From an uncultured Bacteroidales bacterium (lineage in GTDB: Bacteria; Bacteroidota; Bacteroidia; Bacteroidales; Muribaculaceae): a stretch of DNA of 49,164 nt. The stretch is taken from positions 1 to 49,164 of the forward strand of contig CADBDH010000019.1 in the NCBI GenBank assembly GCA_902793405.1, in the 5' to 3' direction. Below are positions 36,045 through 44,376 of this stretch, piece after piece (position 1 is the first letter of the stretch; each line of letters opens with the position of its first letter). The position numbers and the translations under genes were made by a program. The notes beneath the pieces were generated by a model. That model saw only the letters and a list, made by a program, of their open reading frames with translations. It made no database searches and was not told where the DNA came from.

Positions 36045-36052
36045 TATCTTTG
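36045..36052 (+). promoter_or_regulatory. -7 promoter box of repeat copy 1
   Basis: TATCTTTG, a TAnnTTTG match. The roughly 90 bp upstream are recognisably similar to those before copy 3, including AATCATTTTA and GCAAAAA. No good TTTG is seen at -33. Confidence 0.5.
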
Positions 36053-36260
36053 CACTTGTTGTCTAATAAAGGGTAGCAAACATTAGGAGAATTGCTCAAA
36101 CGCTCACGAATCACCACCTCGAACAGTATCAAGCAAAACTGCAAAAACCATCGAGCTAAAGTGTGTCCAATAAAAGGGCGCAGTTTTTCCCGATGTGGTT
36201 TTGCGGCTTGTGGTGAGCCAGAGAGCGGCTTGTGGAAATCTGCGCCTTTTCTATTTCTAT
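36053..36260 (+). ncRNA. Putative structured RNA, copy 1
   Basis: It begins just after a TATCTTTG box. Stem A: CGCTC (36101-36105) and TCACCAC (36111-36117) pair with GTGGTGA (36210-36216) and GAGCG (36223-36227). Stem B: GGCGCAG (36177-36183) pairs with CTGCGCC (36240-36246), then TTTTCTATTT. B1 lies inside the stem A loop and B2 outside it, so the stems interlock as in a pseudoknot. A small 5' hairpin AGCAA/TTGCT is near 36075-36095. There is no conserved reading frame. I do not recognise the family. Confidence 0.5.
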
Positions 36261-36593
36261 GAAATACGCAACTGTTTTCAGTTTATGGAATGAGTGGGTT
36301 TGTCATGAATATTGACTCGGCATGTCGGTCAAGCAATCTGACTGAATATCAAGAATCTATCAGGACTGTTGCCCTATTGACCTGTGGAAATGCGGCAATA
36401 CACAGTAGGTAAGTTGTGTGACTACCGAGTATCCCCCAGCATCCTGAAAAATCAAAGCACAGGGCGTGTCCAATTGTGGCACGCCCTGCTTGTTTTTTGT
36501 GATTAATACTATGGTTAATAGTAAATTGAAGGTTTTAGCGTTGATTTTTGCATATAAAATGCAATGTTATTAAAAAATTATGTTTTACTTTGC

Positions 36594-36795
36594 AGTGTGT
36601 TCATCAGAACCCATAACATTTACATATTATTGCTTTAACGCTCTCGAATCACCACATCGAACAGTTATGGGCAAAACAATGAAACTCAAAAGGATTCCTG
36701 CCATCTTGAGCGCAGATTTCTCTCACTAGGGTTTTGTGGTTTGTGGTGAGCTAGAGGGCGTGTGACCGAGAGAGGTCTGCGCTTTTCTTTTATGA
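36594..36795 (+). ncRNA. Putative structured RNA, copy 2
   Basis: It lies below a TTACTTTG box (36585-36592). Stem A: ACGCTCTC (36638-36645) and TCACCAC (36649-36655) pair with GTGGTGA (36743-36749) and GAGGGCGT (36754-36761, one G-U pair). Stem B: AGCGCAGA (36709-36716) pairs with TCTGCGCT (36776-36783), followed by TTTCTTTT. The interlocked order A1-B1-A2-B2 is the same as in copy 1, although the primary sequence differs. A 20-codon frame (36667-36729, starting MGKTMKLKR) overlaps B1. Confidence 0.55.
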
Positions 36796-36860
36796 ATAAA
36801 AGACATAACCAAAATTCAAGTATATATTAGTCATATGCCAACACTCAAAAATAACAATCC

Positions 36861-36894
36861 GCAGGCTGCTGCTGGTAACCCAGTGGCACCCTGC
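36861..36894. repeat. 34-bp imperfect palindrome, left orientation
   Basis: Bounded by GCAGG and CCTGC. Compared with the homologous site at 42890-42923, this block is the reverse complement apart from one base, while the flanking DNA on both sides is in the same orientation in the two copies. Confidence 0.9.
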
Positions 36895-37057
36895 GTTGTG
36901 CAATAGATGTCGTCATAAAAAAAGCTCGTACCGCGTTATGTGATGCGGGCATAAAGGCTTCCTTATAATTTAATACTTTTCTTTATTAGATACAATAGTG
37001 ATTAGACTTCTCATGCAGTGATGCATAGGGAGTCTTTTTTAATAAGATGTCTGTTTT

Positions 37058-37100
37058 GCCATTTTTTGCTGGTCATGATGTCGAAGGCCATCTGGTCGGG
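37058..37100 (-). pseudogene. Remnant of the 3' end of the cysteine-desulfidase-like gene
   Basis: On the minus strand it reads PDQMAFDIMTSKKWQ, matching the C-terminal TDQMVLDIMTGKK of the gene at 43084-44376, but the stop codon is lost (TAA to TGG). It is part of the long direct repeat and shows that the duplicated block was copied from the 3' flank of that gene. Confidence 0.75.
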
Positions 37101-37205
37101 ATTGAAAGTGTGAAGTATTGTCAAAGAAATCAATCATTTTAACGCAAAAAGCCGTTTTTGTTAGATTTTTTTCAAGGAAATGTGATTGAGATGTGAAAAA
37201 ATGTT

Positions 37206-37213
37206 TATCTTTG
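37206..37213 (+). promoter_or_regulatory. -7 promoter box of repeat copy 3, nearest box to the second susC
   Basis: TATCTTTG matches TAnnTTTG. I find no other such box between here and the susC ATG at 37739, so susC may be transcribed from here with a leader of about 520 nt that includes copy 3 (inference). Confidence 0.45.
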
Positions 37214-37430
37214 CGCCTGTTGTACCCCCAAAAGTACAGCAAACATGAGGAGAATTGCTCAATCGTTCTTGAATCACCACATTGATGTTAGAGTGAGCAA
37301 AATGTCAAAACCCATTGAGCGTGGGTGTGTCTAATAGCATGGCACAACAGTACACACAATGCGGTTTTGCACAATGTGATGAGGCCGAGGATGTGTTGTG
37401 GAAATCTGCACCTTTCTATATCTATGAAAA
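37214..37430 (+). ncRNA. Putative structured RNA, copy 3 (degenerate)
   Basis: Aligns with copy 1 over its whole length (GGAGAATTGCTCAA, GAATCACCACAT, GGTTTTGC, TTGTGGAAATCTGC, TATCTATGAAA). Stem A is kept: TCACCACATT (37274-37283) with AATGTGATGA (37373-37382), nine of ten pairs. Stem B is lost: the region matching B1 (GGCACAA, about 37351) does not pair with CTGCACC. It may be decayed or have another role as the leader of the susC that follows. Confidence 0.4.
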
Positions 37431-37738
37431 TTCGCAAGGGTTTCCTACCAATGGAGATGGAAAATCGAACATGTGTGGCAATAATTCTTAAACGAATGTG
37501 GGGAGATAGTGGCTGTAGGGCTATAGACATTCGTCGCAGTGGACACTTGGCGCCACTGCAATGCTGTTGTGCCTATAGGCCGGTTAGCCCCTCTTCCCGT
37601 AGAAATGAGACAAAATTCAGTAAGCAGAGCGCCCTTGCTGTAGATAAACACCTTAGAGATAATCAACACCAATCCACTGGAAGGTCCAGATAGGCGCTCG
37701 TCTGAACCTCCCCGTGGATGAACAAATTGTTTTACTGT

Positions 37739-40700
37739 ATGAAGAGACTTTTATCAATTCTCATGGCGATATGCCTCATCTCGATGAGTGCATGGGCCAA
37801 CAAGACCGTGAGTGGTAAGGTCATCAGTGCTATCGACAATGAGCCGTTGATTGGCGCCACGGTGCAGGCCGTAGGAACCAATCAAGGAACCTCCACTGAC
37901 TACGACGGTCAATTCACAGTAACTGTAGATGACAAAGTAACACAGCTCTTGATCAGCTGTGTGGGCTACAAGGCTCAAGTCGTTGCGGTTGCGAGTTATG
38001 TATCGGTAGCCCTTGAGGAGGACAAGACCTTGCTCGATGAGGTCGTTGTCACGGCTATGGGTATCAAACGTGAGAAGAAGGCACTGGGTTACAACACCCA
38101 GAACCTGAACGCTGAGGACCTGAACACAAGCGGTACAACTTCGCTGGCTAACGCCATTCAGGGTAAGTTGACCGGTGTGCAGGTGCACCAAGCCAGTGGT
38201 GCTCCCGGTTCCTCGGCCCAGATCGTGATTCGCGGTGCCCGTTCGTTCAGCGGTAACAACACCCCGTTGTATGTCGTTGACGGCATGCCCATCGCATCTA
38301 ACGCCGACTTCTCGACGGGACAGAGTGTTTCCGGTGCCGATTATCCCAACCGTTCTATTGACTTGAACCCCGACGACATCGAGAGCATCAACGTGTTGAA
38401 GGGTCAGGCAGCCAGTGCGCTTTACGGTATGCGCGCCAGCAATGGTGTCATTGTCATTACCACCAAGCGTGGCCGTGTCGACAGTGAGAGACCTACCGTC
38501 AGCATCAATTTCAATATCGCTGCCGACCGCGTGTCGCGCAAGTTTGAGCGCCAGACCGTGTATTCGCAAGGTAATGGTCTGTCCATGGACGATGACGGTA
38601 CTATCTATGACTCGGGCTTCAATCCTGCAAGCTCCATGACCTGGGGTCCCAAGATCACCGAACTGCCCAATGATCCCAATTATGGATATGGCGGAGCAGC
38701 AGCTCCCGAGGGTGGCAGTCCCGGTCAGTACTACAATCCCAAATATGCTTGGGGTGGCTTAAGCGGTTGGCAGACTCCCAAGGTCTATGACAACGTGGGT
38801 GACTTCTTTGAGAATGCCTATACCGAGAATGTGAACTTGTCGATCGCCCAAAAGCACAACAACGTGAACTACTCGTTCGGTTTGAGCAACAGTTACCAGA
38901 AAGGTATCGTGCCCTCGACCAACATGACGCGTTGGGGTGCCCGCGGTCTGGTTGACTGGGAAATCAGCAAGAACTGGAAGACGGGCTTCAGCGGCAACTA
39001 CAGCAGCAGCAAGATCAACACGGCGCCTGGTGCCAACTCGGGTATCTTGAACGTGGTGTATGCGGCTCCTGCCGAATATGACCTGAAGGGTATCAGCCCC
39101 AATTTCCCCGATGATCCCAAATATCAGGTCTGCTTCCGCACGACCAGTTTCAACAACCCCTATTGGTGGGCTAAGTATTGTGAGTACTATCGTCACACCA
39201 ACCGCTTCTTTGGCAACGCTTACCTGGAGTTCTCTCCCAGCTTGGGCAACGAGAACATGAAGCTCACCTTCCGTGAGCAGGCCGGTGTCGATTTCTGGAC
39301 CACCGATAACCGTGATGTTCAAGAGCTCTACTATGACGGCCGAACCGGCAACAGCATGGAGAAGGGCTCAATCTCGGTAACCGGTGTGCGCGAGAACGTG
39401 TTTAACAACCTGTTCTGGGCTAACTTGGACTATAAGTTCGGTGCCGACAACGAATGGTTCCTGAACTTCATGCTCGGTAACGAGATCAACCACGAGAATG
39501 CCCGCACCTGGGAGACCGACGGCTCGGCTTTCAGCTATTTTGGCTTCCCCACGCTGCAGAACTGTACGAGCTATGACTATGCGATGGACTATGAGTGGAA
39601 AGACCGTAGCGTGGCCTTCTTCGGACAGGCTACCATGTCATGGAAGGACATGCTCTACTTGACCGTCACTGGTCGTGAGGATATCGTTTCGTCGATGCCC
39701 TACAAGAACCGCTCGTTCTTCTATCCCTCGGTATCGTTCGGCTGGATTTTCACCGAGCTCCCCGGGCTGAAGGGCAACAAATTCCTGAGCTATGGTAAGT
39801 TCCGCGCTTCTTGGGCCCAGGTGGGTCAGGCAGGTCATTACTATAAGGATTACTACACCGTTCCCACCTATGGCAGCGGTATGTATACCTACACTCCGGT
39901 TGCCTTCCCCATGAACGGTGTTTCTTCGTTGGTTCCCTACTATGTGAAGTATGACAGCAACCTCAAGCCTCAGAACACCAACAACTTCGAGACCGGTCTT
40001 GACCTGAACTTCTTCAACAACCGCCTGCGTCTCGAGTACACGCTGAGTTATCAGAACGTGACCGACCAGATCTTCTCGGTTCCCTGCTCGGGCTCGAGTG
40101 GTTATCAGTACCTGATGACCAATGCTGGTAAGATGGAAACTTGGTCGCATGAGGTGGCGTTGAATGCCGACATTCTCCAGAACAAGGACTATGACTTGAC
40201 CTTCGGTGTGAACTTCTCGAAGATCAATAACAAGGTCGTTGAACTGGCCGAGGGCGTTGAGTCCATCTTCCTGGGTGGCTTTGTTGAGCCTCAGATCCGT
40301 GCTCAGGCCGGCTGCACCTATCCCAACATCTACGGTTACGCCTTCAAGCGTGACGAGTCAGGCAACCTGCTGTTGAAGGACGGTCTGCCCCAGGCAACTG
40401 CCGACAGCGAGGACCTGGGTAACTGCTCGCCCGACTTCCAGGTGGGCTTTAACCTGGGCGCTCGTTACAAACGCGTTTCGCTGGCTACCACTTGGGATTG
40501 GAACAAGGGCGGCCGCATGTACCACGGTACGCTGGGCACCCTGGAGTACTTCGGTACAACCAAGAATTCACTGCCTTACCACGAGGGTACCATGGTGGCC
40601 GAGGGTATCGACGAGGCTACCGGTAAGCCCAATACCAAAGAGGTGCTGAAGCAAGACTGGTACATGGCGTACTATGATATCACCGAGGCCATGGTCTATG

Positions 40701-40930
40701 ACATGAGCTACTTGAAGCTGCGAGACATCACGCTCACCTACGATCTTCCCCGCTTTGCCGGCATCAACCTGTCGATCTACGGCTTTGCCCGCAACGTACT
40801 GGTTTGGTCAAAGCTCACCGACTTTGACCCCGAGTCATCGCAGTCAAACGGCAACATGAGTGGTTACTTTGAGCGTTATTCACTGCCTGCTACCTCAAGC
40901 TACGGTGGCGGTATGAAGATCACGTTCTAA
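37739..40930 (+). CDS. susC: SusC-family TonB-dependent outer-membrane transporter (second system)
   Basis: A 1063-residue receptor from the ATG at 37739, with signal peptide MKRLLSILMAICLISMSAWA; an in-frame ATG also lies seven codons earlier at 37718. A CarboxypepD-reg-like domain (about 22-95, VSGKVISAIDNEPLIGATVQ) is followed by a TonB-box region LLDEVVVTAMGIKREKKALG and a plug (about 110-250, LYVVDGMPIASNADF, SALYGMRASNGVIVITTK). The large barrel ends GGMKITF. There is no STN domain. It partners the SusD-like gene 53 bp downstream. The pair stands alone, without enzymes or a regulator, between two long direct repeats, so no substrate can be assigned. Codon use looks like that of its neighbours. 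Confidence 0.94.
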   Translation: MKRLLSILMAICLISMSAWANKTVSGKVISAIDNEPLIGATVQAVGTNQGTSTDYDGQFTVTVDDKVTQLLISCVGYKAQVVAVASYVSVALEEDKTLLDEVVVTAMGIKREKKALGYNTQNLNAEDLNTSGTTSLANAIQGKLTGVQVHQASGAPGSSAQIVIRGARSFSGNNTPLYVVDGMPIASNADFSTGQSVSGADYPNRSIDLNPDDIESINVLKGQAASALYGMRASNGVIVITTKRGRVDSERPTVSINFNIAADRVSRKFERQTVYSQGNGLSMDDDGTIYDSGFNPASSMTWGPKITELPNDPNYGYGGAAAPEGGSPGQYYNPKYAWGGLSGWQTPKVYDNVGDFFENAYTENVNLSIAQKHNNVNYSFGLSNSYQKGIVPSTNMTRWGARGLVDWEISKNWKTGFSGNYSSSKINTAPGANSGILNVVYAAPAEYDLKGISPNFPDDPKYQVCFRTTSFNNPYWWAKYCEYYRHTNRFFGNAYLEFSPSLGNENMKLTFREQAGVDFWTTDNRDVQELYYDGRTGNSMEKGSISVTGVRENVFNNLFWANLDYKFGADNEWFLNFMLGNEINHENARTWETDGSAFSYFGFPTLQNCTSYDYAMDYEWKDRSVAFFGQATMSWKDMLYLTVTGREDIVSSMPYKNRSFFYPSVSFGWIFTELPGLKGNKFLSYGKFRASWAQVGQAGHYYKDYYTVPTYGSGMYTYTPVAFPMNGVSSLVPYYVKYDSNLKPQNTNNFETGLDLNFFNNRLRLEYTLSYQNVTDQIFSVPCSGSSGYQYLMTNAGKMETWSHEVALNADILQNKDYDLTFGVNFSKINNKVVELAEGVESIFLGGFVEPQIRAQAGCTYPNIYGYAFKRDESGNLLLKDGLPQATADSEDLGNCSPDFQVGFNLGARYKRVSLATTWDWNKGGRMYHGTLGTLEYFGTTKNSLPYHEGTMVAEGIDEATGKPNTKEVLKQDWYMAYYDITEAMVYDMSYLKLRDITLTYDLPRFAGINLSIYGFARNVLVWSKLTDFDPESSQSNGNMSGYFERYSLPATSSYGGGMKITF

Positions 40931-40983
40931 TGTTTGCCAGAGAGTTTTCAATCATATTTAACACATTCAAAAAAGACTGGAAT

Positions 40984-42459
40984 ATGAAACTGAAATATAT
41001 AACCATAGCCTTATTGGCTATCATGTTCACTTCTTGTAGTGAAGACCTGATGGACCGCATCAATACTGACAATGCCAACCCGCCCGCCGAGGCTGTCGAT
41101 GGCAAGTTTGTCATCCCGGGTGCCATTATGAGCTCGGCCTTCAATACCATTTCGGGCAACTATGCCTGGTACATCTCATCGTTCACTGAGCAGGAGTTTG
41201 GTACGGGCAACAACCAGCTGATGAGGACCGAAACCCGCAACGTGAGCGAGTATATGGCCACCAGCTGCTTTAACAACGAGTGGAACGACACCTACGCCAC
41301 CCTCAGGGGTTTGAAGGAAGTCATCGACAAGTGTTCTGAGGGCAGTTCCAATTACGGACAAAGCGATCTGCTGGGAATGGCTCAGACGCTCACGGCTCTT
41401 GACCTGGGTATCTTGACCGACCTGCATGGTGATATCCCCTACAGCGAGGCCCTTCAGGGCATGGACAACCTGCAGCCCAAGCTGGACAGCCAGGAAAGCA
41501 TCTACCAGGCCATCTTCAAGTTGCTGGACGATGCGATTGCCAACCTGCAGGAAGGCGGCGACAATGTAGGTGAAAGTGATATCCTCTTCGGTGGCGACTG
41601 CGACCAGTGGCTGGGCCTGGCCTATGCCTTGAAGGCTCGCTACAAACTGCACACCTACTTCCGTAACCGCAACGTCCTGCCCGAGGTGATTAACCTGGCC
41701 AATGCCGCTATCGAAGCAGGCTTTGACGGCGCTCAGCTCGATGTGTTCAACGGCGTGACTGCCGACAACCCCTGGAGCGCTTACTGGTGGAGCCGCTACT
41801 ACACGGGTTCCAGCACAACGGTTGATGACCTGATGCTGGAGCGTAATGACCCCCGTGAGTGGGTTTATAATATTGACTACTTTGGTGAAGACATCGTTGG
41901 CGTGCCTGGCGATGCCGCTGCAGCAAAGCTTGTTCAGGCTGTGAATTGTCCCACTTGGCTTGACAATGGCGCTTCGCCCATCCATGTGTTCAGCAAGAGC
42001 GAGTTGTACTTCATCCTTGCCGAGGCCAAGGCCCGTCTGGGTCAGGATGCCAGCGAGGACATGGCAACTGCCATCGAGGCTTCGTTTGAGGATTATGCTT
42101 ATTGTGATGCATATCCCGAATATACCGAGTTTGACCCGGGCACAGCGGCCGAATATATCGCCACGTTGCCCGTGACCTTGAAGGAGATCATGGTTCAGAA
42201 GTATCTGGCACAATGCCGTGACGAGCAGATTGAGGCTTACAACGACATCCGCCGCTGTAAGGCTTTGGGCGAGGAGCACATCACCCTCACCAATCCCAAG
42301 AACAACGGTTCGACAGGTAGCACTTGGCCCCTGCGTTTGCCCTACGGCAGCAGTGACGTGACCAGCAATCCTAACGTGTCGGCAGCATTCGGCACCGGTA
42401 ATGAGGCTGGCCGTTACATCTTCACTGAGCCCGTTTGGTGGGCCGGTGGCAGCCGTTAA
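40984..42459 (+). CDS. SusD-like lipoprotein (SusD-like_2 type), partner of the second SusC
   Basis: A 491-residue lipoprotein. The ATG at 40984 gives MKLKYITIALLAIMFTSC with lipobox Cys18; the frame is open upstream to 40930 but that would bury the signal. Features of the SusD-like_2 branch (PF12771 type) are ALDLGILTDLHGDIPYSEAL (about 140-160), PKLDSQESIYQAIFKLLDDA and ALKARYKLHTYFRN, plus the C-terminal VQKYLAQCRDEQIEAYNDIR. It would capture the ligand for the SusC channel at the cell surface. A 14-bp terminator hairpin follows 26 nt after the stop. Substrate unknown. Confidence 0.9.
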   Translation: MKLKYITIALLAIMFTSCSEDLMDRINTDNANPPAEAVDGKFVIPGAIMSSAFNTISGNYAWYISSFTEQEFGTGNNQLMRTETRNVSEYMATSCFNNEWNDTYATLRGLKEVIDKCSEGSSNYGQSDLLGMAQTLTALDLGILTDLHGDIPYSEALQGMDNLQPKLDSQESIYQAIFKLLDDAIANLQEGGDNVGESDILFGGDCDQWLGLAYALKARYKLHTYFRNRNVLPEVINLANAAIEAGFDGAQLDVFNGVTADNPWSAYWWSRYYTGSSTTVDDLMLERNDPREWVYNIDYFGEDIVGVPGDAAAAKLVQAVNCPTWLDNGASPIHVFSKSELYFILAEAKARLGQDASEDMATAIEASFEDYAYCDAYPEYTEFDPGTAAEYIATLPVTLKEIMVQKYLAQCRDEQIEAYNDIRRCKALGEEHITLTNPKNNGSTGSTWPLRLPYGSSDVTSNPNVSAAFGTGNEAGRYIFTEPVWWAGGSR

Positions 42460-42485
42460 CGGATAGACATCGTTAGCTAAATATC

Positions 42486-42525
42486 AGGAGGGTGTGTCAT
42501 TTTGACACACCCTCCTGCTTGTTTT
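42486..42525 (+). terminator. Terminator of the second susC/susD operon
   Basis: A perfect 14-bp stem (42486-42499 with 42503-42516, loop TTT) is followed by GCTTGTTTTTT. The related hairpin at 36461-36487 differs in the stem by matched C-G to T-A changes. Confidence 0.9.
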
Positions 42526-42621
42526 TTGTGATTAATACTATGGTTAATGGTAAATTGAAGGTCTTAGAGTTGATTTTTGCATATAAAATGCAATGTTATT
42601 AAAAAATTATGTTTTACTTTG

Positions 42622-42825
42622 CGGTGTGTTCATCTGAACCCATAACATTTACATATTATTGCTATAACGCTCTCGAATCACCACAATGAACAGTTATGGG
42701 CAAAACAATGAAACTCAAAAGGAATCCTGCCATCTTGAGCGCAGATTTTTCTCACTAGGGTTTTGTGGTTTGTGGTGAGCTAGAGGGCGTGTGACCGAGA
42801 GAGGTCCGCGCTTTTCTTTTATGAA
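42622..42825 (+). ncRNA. Putative structured RNA, copy 4
   Basis: It follows a TTACTTTG box (42614-42621). Stem A: ACGCTCTC (42667-42674) and TCACCAC (42678-42684) pair with GTGGTGA (42772-42778) and GAGGGCGT (42783-42790). Stem B: AGCGCAGA (42738-42745) pairs with TCCGCGCT (42805-42812), with one A-C mismatch, then TTTCTTTT. It is nearly identical to copy 2, including the 20-codon frame at 42696-42758. Confidence 0.55.
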
Positions 42826-42889
42826 TAAAAGACATAACCAAAATTCAAGTATATATTAGTCATATGCCAACACTCAAAAATAACAATCC

Positions 42890-42923
42890 GCAGGGTGCTA
42901 CTGGGTTACCAGCAGCAGCCTGC
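42890..42923. repeat. 34-bp imperfect palindrome, right orientation (inverted relative to 36861-36894)
   Basis: Bounded by GCAGG and CCTGC. It equals the reverse complement of 36861-36894 except at its tenth base. The loop reads GTTA here and TAAC there. Confidence 0.9.
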
Positions 42924-42944
42924 GTTGTGCAATGGATGTCGTCA

Positions 42945-42978
42945 TAAAAAAGCTCGTACCGTGTTATGGGGTACGAGC
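42945..42978 (-). terminator. Terminator of the cysteine-desulfidase-like gene
   Basis: GCTCGTACC (42952-42960) pairs with GGTACGAGC (42970-42978). On the minus strand seven T follow. In the left repeat the stem has drifted but largely keeps pairing through G-U pairs. Confidence 0.8.
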
Positions 42979-43033
42979 ATAAAGGCTCCCTTATAATTTA
43001 ATACTTTTCTTTATTAGATACAATAGTGATTAG

Positions 43034-43069
43034 GACTTCTCATGCAGTGATGCATTGGGAGTCTTTTTT
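43034..43069 (+). terminator. Plus-strand terminator closing the repeat unit
   Basis: GACTTCTCATGCA pairs with TGCATTGGGAGTC (two mismatches at the centre of the stem), followed by TTTTTT. It lies just before the convergent gene's stop codon and would end any RNA started in the repeat. Confidence 0.75.
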
Positions 43070-43083
43070 AGATGTCTGTCTTG

Positions 43084-44376
43084 TTATTTTTTGCCGGTCA
43101 TGATGTCGAGGACCATCTGGTCGGTGGTGCACATGGCATCGGCACCGATGATGGTGAGGTTGCGGATGGAACGGTCCACATCGTCGTCGATGATGCCCTC
43201 GGCACTGGTGACGTGGCGGCCTTCCATGGCGAGCACGGCACTGAGCAGGGCGGTCGATACGCCCGAAGCGATCTTCAGGGCGCAGCTGGGCTTGGCGCCG
43301 TCGCAAATCATGCCGGTGAGGTTGGCGATCATGTTCTTGACCGCATAGCAGATGCGCTCAAAGCTGCCTCCCATCAGATAGGTGATGCCACAGCTGCTGC
43401 CGATAGAGGCCACGACACAGCCGCACAGGGCGCTGAGTTTGCCCAGGCTCTGCTTGATGTAGATAGCCGTCAGGTGGCTAAGGGTGAGGGCGCGGATGAG
43501 TTCCTCCTCGGTATTCTCATTCTCCATGGCATAGACGGCAACGGGATTGGTGGCGCAGATGCCCTGGTTGCCCGAGCCGCTGTTGCTCATCACGGGAATG
43601 AGGGCGCCGCCCATGCGGGCATCGGTGGCCAACGCGGTCTTGGAGAGGATGCGGGAGAAGATGGTGTTGCCAAAGATGCCGTGGCTCAGCGGCCTCTCCA
43701 TGGTCTTGCCCAGGCAGTGGCCGTAATTGCCCTTGATGGATTCCTGGGCGGCCTTGAGGTTATAGTCGCGGGTCTCGAGGATAAAACTGATTTCGTCGAG
43801 CGGGGCTTGCATGGCAAAGTCATAGACCAGGCGCAGGTTCAAGGCAATGTCGCCCTCGTTGCCGTCGCAGCTCTTGCCACCTTGCTGGTCGAGTAGCACC
43901 TCGTCGTCGCGGGTGACGCGCACAAAGCGGGTGTGGGAGCCACTGATAATGGCCGTCGAGTGGTGGCCACCGCCCTCGCACAGTATCTCGACATAGAGCT
44001 TATCGCAGTCGCCCTGCTTGAGCTGGATGTTGATGCGGCCCTCGTCAATGTATTGTTTGCCTTGCTCGATGGCCTCGGGGGTGACGTCCTTGAGCACTTC
44101 AAGCTGGTACTCCGACTTGCCGATGATGGCTCCCAACGCGATGGCTATGGGCAAGCCAATCATGCCCGTGCCGGGGATGCCCACGCCCATAGCGTTCTTG
44201 AGGATGTTGGCGCTCAGCAGGACCGTGATTTTCTCGGGGCGGCAGCCCAGTGCCTCGGTGGCACGGCTCACACACAATGCCACTGCCATGGGTTCGGTGC
44301 AACCCACCGCAGGGACAACTTCGCGCTTGATCAACGCGATAATCTGCTCTCTAATCTTCTCTTCAATCATTATCAC
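43084..44376 (-). CDS. cyuA: L-cysteine desulfidase-like iron-sulfur enzyme (UPF0597/CyuA family)
   Basis: A 430-residue cytosolic protein of the UPF0597 (YhaM/CyuA, archaeal CdsB) family, related to the alpha subunit of iron-sulfur serine dehydratases. Seen: VVPAVGCTEPMAVAL (Cys26), GVGIPGTGMIGLPIAIALGA, CEGGGHHSTAIISGSHT, MSNSGSGNQGI and MICDGAKPSCALK. Conserved cysteines are expected to hold a 4Fe-4S cluster. Family members split L-cysteine to pyruvate, ammonia and sulfide. The start may be the first ATG or the one two codons later. It is downstream of dsbD on the same strand (112-bp gap containing heptad-like repeats). Its 3' end has been copied to 37058-37100. A serine dehydratase role cannot be excluded. 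Confidence 0.85.
   Translation of the reverse strand: MIMIEEKIREQIIALIKREVVPAVGCTEPMAVALCVSRATEALGCRPEKITVLLSANILKNAMGVGIPGTGMIGLPIAIALGAIIGKSEYQLEVLKDVTPEAIEQGKQYIDEGRINIQLKQGDCDKLYVEILCEGGGHHSTAIISGSHTRFVRVTRDDEVLLDQQGGKSCDGNEGDIALNLRLVYDFAMQAPLDEISFILETRDYNLKAAQESIKGNYGHCLGKTMERPLSHGIFGNTIFSRILSKTALATDARMGGALIPVMSNSGSGNQGICATNPVAVYAMENENTEEELIRALTLSHLTAIYIKQSLGKLSALCGCVVASIGSSCGITYLMGGSFERICYAVKNMIANLTGMICDGAKPSCALKIASGVSTALLSAVLAMEGRHVTSAEGIIDDDVDRSIRNLTIIGADAMCTTDQMVLDIMTGKK

Follow-up and report, generated by a model that had tools for sequence, protein, structure and literature searches.

A pseudoknotted RNA element of gut Bacteroidales and its putative role as a leader of mixed accessory genes

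The window analyzed here is a stretch of 49,164 nucleotides (nt) of contig CADBDH010000019.1, from the 3.19 Mb genome of an uncultured Bacteroidales bacterium of the Muribaculaceae (assembly GCA_902793405.1), and it contains four copies of a repeat that, judging from its sequences, is a genuine structured RNA family of gut Bacteroidales. The element is built on interlocked helices, and RNA-type conservation (compensatory and G.U-compatible changes) is found in the outer part of stem A, a six-pair loop-loop helix, stem C and hairpins E and G. We consider it reasonably likely that the element acts in cis, as a 5' leader gating read-through into a downstream gene. The original prediction, made from the letters of the window, had been that of a pseudoknotted, multi-copy structured RNA, and pairing over 104 aligned copies supports its stems A and B; the 5' hairpin, C, E, the loop-loop helix, a competing pairing D and the usual cargo gene were not visible from four copies.

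Architecture and covariation of the element

All four copies are matched on the + strand by a model (R1) made from copies 1 and 2 together with six relatives. As copies 1 and 2 belong to this training set, only copies 3 and 4 count as independent matches, and the proposed four-copy element proves real. The copies, their promoter boxes and the parts of copy 1 are as follows.

36086..36254, + strand: copy 1 of the RNA element (R1 137.8 bits, E 8.9e-29; training member)
36624..36791, + strand: copy 2 (R1 134.0 bits; training member), with B1 at 36710-36715 and B2 at 36777-36782
37249..37420, + strand: copy 3, degenerate (R1 59.4 bits), having lost both stem B and hairpin G; susC lies about 300 nt further 3'
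42653..42820, + strand: copy 4, a near copy of copy 2 (R1 124.5 bits)
36045..36052, + strand: TATCTTTG, Bacteroidota -7 box of copy 1, read in the sequence
37206..37213, + strand: TATCTTTG, -7 box of copy 3, read in the sequence
36056..36079, + strand: P0 of copy 1, the 5' hairpin opening the predicted transcript (computed fold)
36092..36097, + strand: C1 of copy 1, TTGCTC, partner AAGCAA at 36131-36136; 4 of 5 pairs kept
36101..36117, + strand: A1 of copy 1, outer strand CGCTCAC 36101-36107 and loop CACCAC 36112-36117; 6 of 7 outer and 6 of 6 loop pairs kept
36141..36204, + strand: hairpin E of copy 1, arms 36141-36152 and 36192-36204; 7 of 9 pairs kept
36178..36183, + strand: B1 of copy 1, GCGCAG, inside hairpin E; doubles as strand D2
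36205..36227, + strand: hairpin G of copy 1 (loop strand GTGGTG 36210-36215), then outer A2 (36221-36227)
36240..36254, + strand: B2 of copy 1, CTGCGC 36240-36245, paired with B1, and the U-rich tail

In the window copies stem A encloses B1 and leaves B2 outside, as had been claimed. The finer details given with that layout are also found: the pair adjoining stem B changes from G-C in copy 1 to A-T in copy 2, a T-A pair of the outer stem A becomes T-G, and boxes stand before copies 1 and 3 (TTACTTTG is read in copies 2 and 4, versus TATCTTTG in copies 1 and 3). Copy 3 has indeed retained stem A (outer 7/7, inner 5/6) and lost stem B (3/7); it also keeps E (7/9) and C (5/5), and is eroded in D (2/5) and G (1/4). 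Stem B of copy 4 (42739-42744/42806-42811) has, by eye, one A.C mismatch, its count of 2/7 in the alignment being an artefact of an alignment shift. A coding reading of the peptide common to copies 1 and 2 was rejected, since copy 3 carries a one-base insertion at that place and no ATG stands at the shared start in copies 1 and 2.

The fold was assessed on an alignment of 104 copies from 100 loci (L-numbers denote fetched loci and G-numbers genomes), with pair counts taken on its 103 distinct rows. Most of these copies were gathered by a pattern fixing the loop strands and TCTGCGC, and the invariance of the alignment at those positions is thus partly selection. Over 34 pairs, 95.9% of the cells pair. 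The covariation score was 0.542 versus 0.174 for shuffled and at most 0.080 for slid versions, the excess over the latter being in part foreseeable, as sequences of this kind were the source of the structure; both the scores and the cells with two-sided changes exceed all 500 shuffles. Two-sided changes occur at 6/6 pairs in the main segment of outer A (98.5% paired), 9/9 in hairpin E (93.5%), 4/6 in the loop-loop helix (99.2%) and 2/5 in stem C (94.9%). Helices D, G, K and F are together 93.9% paired, with two-sided changes at 3/5 pairs of hairpin D (92.5% paired) and 4/4 of hairpin G (96.1%); stems C, B, G and K were absent from the model that aligned the rows. Stem B is 95.0% paired and changes only on one side, to G.U, with one of its pairs being G-U in 33 of the 103 copies. 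Inspection by eye found divergent members that alter both sides of B (e.g., GTGCGGACT/AGTCCGCAC in L272), as well as loop-loop helices reading TGCAAC/GTTGCA (L027) or CTCGAC/GTCGAG (L269).

A descriptor holding the architecture only found 159 distinct matches, versus 22 in the mirrored sequence, within 2.04 Mb of fetched and hence element-rich sequence. The loop was GTGGTG in 126 of the 159 and another six-mer in 33; a few of these 33 are the same loop shifted by one, several (e.g., L066, L286, L287) look like chance, and twelve different loop six-mers remain after the likely chance matches are dropped. One match, in L312, is unseen by R2, a second model built from 104 copies, and lies before a homologue of a cargo gene. 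Separately, L269:1006-1649 (G712) carries three tandem matches, two of them adjacent, each with its own stem and T-rich run, the weakest scoring 31.2 and 24.8 bits.

Predicted transcription signals and downstream genes

A TAnnTTTG box lies at most 75 nt upstream in 93 of the 103 copies, versus 6.6 expected from shuffles, and the P0 region that follows the box has a mean z of -2.5 (93 copies). At the other end, the 12 nt past stem B hold a mean of 8.4 T (103 copies), in agreement with the T-rich run originally described. Downstream genes were sought behind those of 119 pattern matches with at least 600 nt downstream, taking the divergent direction as control. A sense open reading frame (ORF) of at least 50 amino acids (aa) begins within 300 nt in 104/108 copies versus 44/98 controls, and one of at least 100 aa within 100 nt in 83/108 versus 1/98. 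The spacer to the first ATG (ORF of at least 50 aa) measures up to 100 nt in 82/94, and a promoter box was found in 2/84 spacers between tail and ATG, about the chance rate; since the spacers are mostly free of such boxes, most downstream genes seem to depend on read-through. Several co-directional genes follow in a run behind some elements. In several genera of the window's family (several of L039-L059), the spacer is conserved up to the ATG, with GGCAATAATGCAC resembling the 3' arm of P0.

The cargo is unusually diverse. The 146 downstream ORFs, some of which come from one genome represented twice, fall into 71 blastp clusters; one cluster, with five members lying ahead of susC, probably represents no gene. 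Pfam recognized 58 families over 64 representatives, none in more than two. A simple hydropathy rule assigned a hydrophobic N-terminus to 53/70 cargo representatives versus 19/53 upstream neighbors. Defence as a common theme was rejected, the 11 PADLOC families matched being each present in one of 64 members.

Under the favored explanation, a transcript would start at the Bacteroidota promoter just upstream of the element and run on, beyond a stop resembling a terminator, into an accessory gene that mostly starts 30-95 nt on. The B1 strand has two alternatives, the local D pairing or B2 beside the U-rich tail, and D and B are mutually exclusive because they share one strand. Both possibilities (D with at least 4 pairs, B with at least 6) are kept in 78/104 copies, and B can be extended to a median of 11 pairs; the computed fold of copy 1 is the A/E/D state (z -2.2), and the minimum-energy fold of copy 2 the stem-B state (z -1.6). 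Pairing of B1 with B2 would halt RNA polymerase and the D pairing would let it read through, while the scaffold would sense a small ligand, a protein or another RNA that sets the balance between D and B.

Several results weigh against a leader of this kind. Energies were compared under a nested model, with pseudoknots outside it, in the 93 of 104 copies amenable to computation: A+E is favored over B in 91/93, by a median of 11.9 kcal/mol, and both states come within 6 kcal/mol in 8/93. A balanced switch between A/E and B is not supported by these energies; because A/E wins energetically, any switch would have to oppose D to B on a standing, intact scaffold, the only version that stays plausible. 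As for the fold, hairpin K is 96-97.5% paired and has no two-sided change, the number of pairs with two-sided changes exceeds the shuffled value only slightly (22 versus 18.5, reached by 12/500 shuffles), and so does that of the D, G, K and F set (8 versus 6.0, reached by 44/500). With respect to neighbors, 4/108 copies have no sense gene, nor do window copies 1, 2 and 4, and a well-kept copy in G079, itself part of the training set (155.7 bits), has a convergent gene opposite it. The cargo is also without a common function, unlike most riboswitch regulons. Finally, within one cargo family an R2 element stands before 5/12 close homologues (and 1/7 distant ones), although a divergent leader with this plan precedes one of the remaining seven close homologues, L312; in a second family the element was found in 4/4 close and 0/20 distant homologues scanned. 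Loci L311-L317 hold seven homologues of one cargo family without an R2 element, several with a TTTGC-type box near the ATG.

Some of these points would suit a rather unlikely alternative, namely a stand-alone small RNA acting in trans, with a promoter and terminator of its own, for which the neighboring gene would be frequent but incidental. The -7 box and terminator-like end of the element would fit such an RNA, as would the copies without a sense gene, the gene-less tandem copies (189 nt apart in G1039, in L269, and window copies 1 and 2) and the usual number of one to four copies per carrier genome (1-4 in each of 14 genomes); the tight spacing to the ORF, with spacers mostly free of a promoter box, would be unexpected for an independent RNA gene. 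Processive antitermination elements are known from the phage put sites and the EAR element. A folded leader that modifies RNA polymerase to pass later terminators would be useful to any gene, and thus compatible with the mixed cargo, and the co-directional gene runs behind some elements would also agree with it; nevertheless, the element carries a terminator-like end of its own, stem B, and we regard this explanation as improbable.

Distribution, known families and possible cargo exchange

The window's own genome is included in every genome count given here. With copy 2 as query, blastn matched 7/101 genomes of the same genus, and R1 matched 18/101. The model search of Bacteroidales genomes proposed with the original prediction revealed relatives widely in the window's family, where R1 matched 42/297 genomes and 15/30 genera (E 5.7e-5 to 1.5e-3 for the four weakest). 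R2 matched 25/393 genomes and 16/207 genera of the order, some weakly (E up to 2.8e-3), and 2/296 genomes of the phylum, these being the window's own and G756 (same class, E 3.7e-7); the large genome searches used strict filters, which lose weak matches. An exact-pattern scan of named genomes yielded at least 116 stretches. Among the pattern matches, 78 of the 80 titles listed name Bacteroidales groups, cultured carriers such as Parabacteroides faecalis AGMB00274, Heminiphilus faecis AM35 and Barnesiella sp. WM24 being among them, and those in Saccharibacteria and Lachnospiraceae metagenome-assembled genomes are probably mis-binned contigs.

No blastn match was obtained in phage records with one query each for copy 1 and the L218 element, nor in plasmid records with one query (the L164 element), and among viral contigs a single exact pattern match was found, L218; a phage or plasmid origin was rejected on these single queries and this one match. 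That the repeat might form one end of a small mobile element, or be a functionless sequence in decay, we hold to be practically negligible: the patchy presence, the decayed copy 3 and a multiplicity in the window owed partly to duplication would agree with it, but it is contradicted by the compensatory changes throughout, besides the near absence of matches in phage, plasmid and viral sequences searched as above.

The original prediction knew of no family with this plan, and the Rfam comparison that it proposed agrees with it. Rfam 15 gave 0 matches at gathering score in the window, and at E up to 10 a single weak match, off the elements, between 35700 and 43100; over the element in 17 further loci there was nothing at cut-off, the one weak hit being rliD in L027 (19.4 bits versus a cut-off of 50). 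Bacteroidales-1 (RF01693), Bacteroides-1 (RF01694) and Bacteroid-trp (RF01692) are listed as conserved RNAs of Bacteroidales or Bacteroidetes in PMC2864571, whose table also has Bacteroides-2, without an Rfam number; none of the three with Rfam numbers matches the window or the 17 loci. The family is undescribed in the literature searched, including portions of PMC2864571 and PMC7366714, the 2017 survey of 224 motifs being outside this scope, and a word look-up in PMC11109978 and PMC8632094 returned none of four Bacteroidota words. Because key surveys lie outside this search, the claim of novelty is one of absence from Rfam. A cobalamin riboswitch match above cut-off was also recorded at L255:3029-3163, near an element-bearing locus.

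Among known systems, the element resembles orphan riboswitches and attenuators (leaders with intrinsic terminators) in having a promoter, a folded domain, a hairpin exclusive with a terminator-like stem, and a gene close by; both the short-distance co-directional gene and the conserved structured domain expected of such RNAs are present. It differs from them in its cargo of about 70 blastp clusters, and in that B1 lies inside the sensor-enclosed hairpin and reaches B2 across the sensor. The cargo shows no functional coherence: the 146 ORFs give 71 clusters, and each Pfam family occurs in at most 2/64 representatives. Judged by sequence, the element may work like an attenuator leader, and as a riboswitch it falls short in the coherence of its cargo. 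In the purine riboswitch, one helix closes the fold and the loops of two hairpins pair with each other; the element shares this plan, but adds pseudoknots C and B and hairpin E, and the copies scanned have no Rfam match to the purine family. In type III toxin-antitoxin systems, a pseudoknotted RNA and a terminator precede a gene, much as here; in contrast, the element is mostly a single unit before very mixed cargo, and no type III toxin appears among the 11 matched PADLOC families or the 25 listed of 58 Pfam families. The element offers a well-supported RNA fold of interlocked helices, without an Rfam 15 match, in dominant gut and rumen bacteria, and its many natural variants suit structural work. 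Since the cargo is unusually mixed, no single pathway hints at the signal, and its identification could bring to light a general switch that gut Bacteroidales would use for accessory proteins, most of them exported or in the membrane.

The history of the cargo was followed in ten locus pairs sharing upstream sequence and element (nine among the 60 listed of 428, plus one). In six of them, from four loci, homology stops near the 3' end of the element and the cargo differs: L068/L069, 84.6% identical over 8.3 kb, break at -5, L086/L088 at 0, L079/L083 at +4, L062/L065 and L062/L067 at +15, and L079/L082 at +31. The other four keep the same cargo, or their homology runs on past the element: L084/L085 break at -6 and then share the same susC region, and homology continues to +90 in L065/L067, to +313 in L062/L071 and to +1023 in L082/L083. 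Further pairs, among them L097/L098 (to +1001), have element and cargo in common at loci that differ. At the level of sequence, these comparisons show a modular history rather than a mechanism, and the breaks do not settle how exchange occurred because plain homologous exchange would leave the same marks.

In integrons, attI and attC are folded conserved sites beside interchangeable accessory genes. A comparable exchange site acting at the DNA level, with cargo swapped at its 3' edge, would also be a folded conserved site by exchangeable genes and would agree with the six pairs that break between -5 and +31 with differing cargo. Nevertheless, we find it very improbable: unlike attI and attC, the element has its promoter and fold 5' of the gene and its changes are RNA-like, those compatible with G.U (e.g., 33/103 at one B pair) pointing to RNA; moreover, 4/10 pairs keep cargo or homology, plain homologous exchange must also end homology at the leader's edge, and a comparison with an empty site at miaA gave no clean duplication. 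Insertion with target duplication is likewise not supported, a short repeat standing on both sides in G018 and not in G089. In G018, a 41-nt AC-rich repeat flanks element and cargo, at -296..-256 and +1059..+1100 from the element end in L083; similar stretches are single in some relatives, and the right-hand one is missing in G089. Returning to the cis-acting leader, a wider version of it, in which one architecture of freely varying sequence would be transferable to any accessory gene, place many unrelated, horizontally exchanged genes under a single global signal and have its 3' edge as the joint for cargo swaps, is plainly unlikely. If the cargo-exchange reading were true, it would link RNA regulation to gene turnover.

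Surroundings of the window copies

The region of the copies had been described as gene-free, which is wrong, since two genes fill 37718-42459.

37718..40930, + strand: susC (SusC/RagA; TIGR04056, 2.3e-172), about 300 nt 3' of copy 3
40930..42459, + strand: susD-like gene (PF12771, 1.4e-47)

The gene next to copy 4 is serine dehydratase alpha-chain-like (PF03313, 2.1e-65) and convergent with it. By likeness, the copies form two closer pairs, 1/3 and 2/4. Positions 36485-36784 are 96% identical to 42514-42813, and 36485-37099 repeats 42514-43124 piecewise, with 89-97% identity (last piece 37045-37099/43070-43124); because the flanks of copies 2 and 4 repeat in this way, multiplicity in the window is partly local duplication. 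In G091, one element fronts a gene reading as susC; a second element lies 6.8 kb further on and is turned towards the same convergent gene as copy 4. Given this layout, the window is likely to contain a duplicated unit of that kind. The window copies are partly decayed and without closely adjacent cargo.

Two minor features lie near the copies. A 36-nt imperfect palindrome, at 36860-36895 and 42889-42924, stands in opposite orientations within the pair of duplicated units (97% inverted match), as if flipped. Besides, the stretch 37430-37717 shares with the sequence 3' of the element in L018, L030, L035 and L143 a pseudo-reading frame before a susC-like gene, and this stretch between element and gene is possibly a second leader element.

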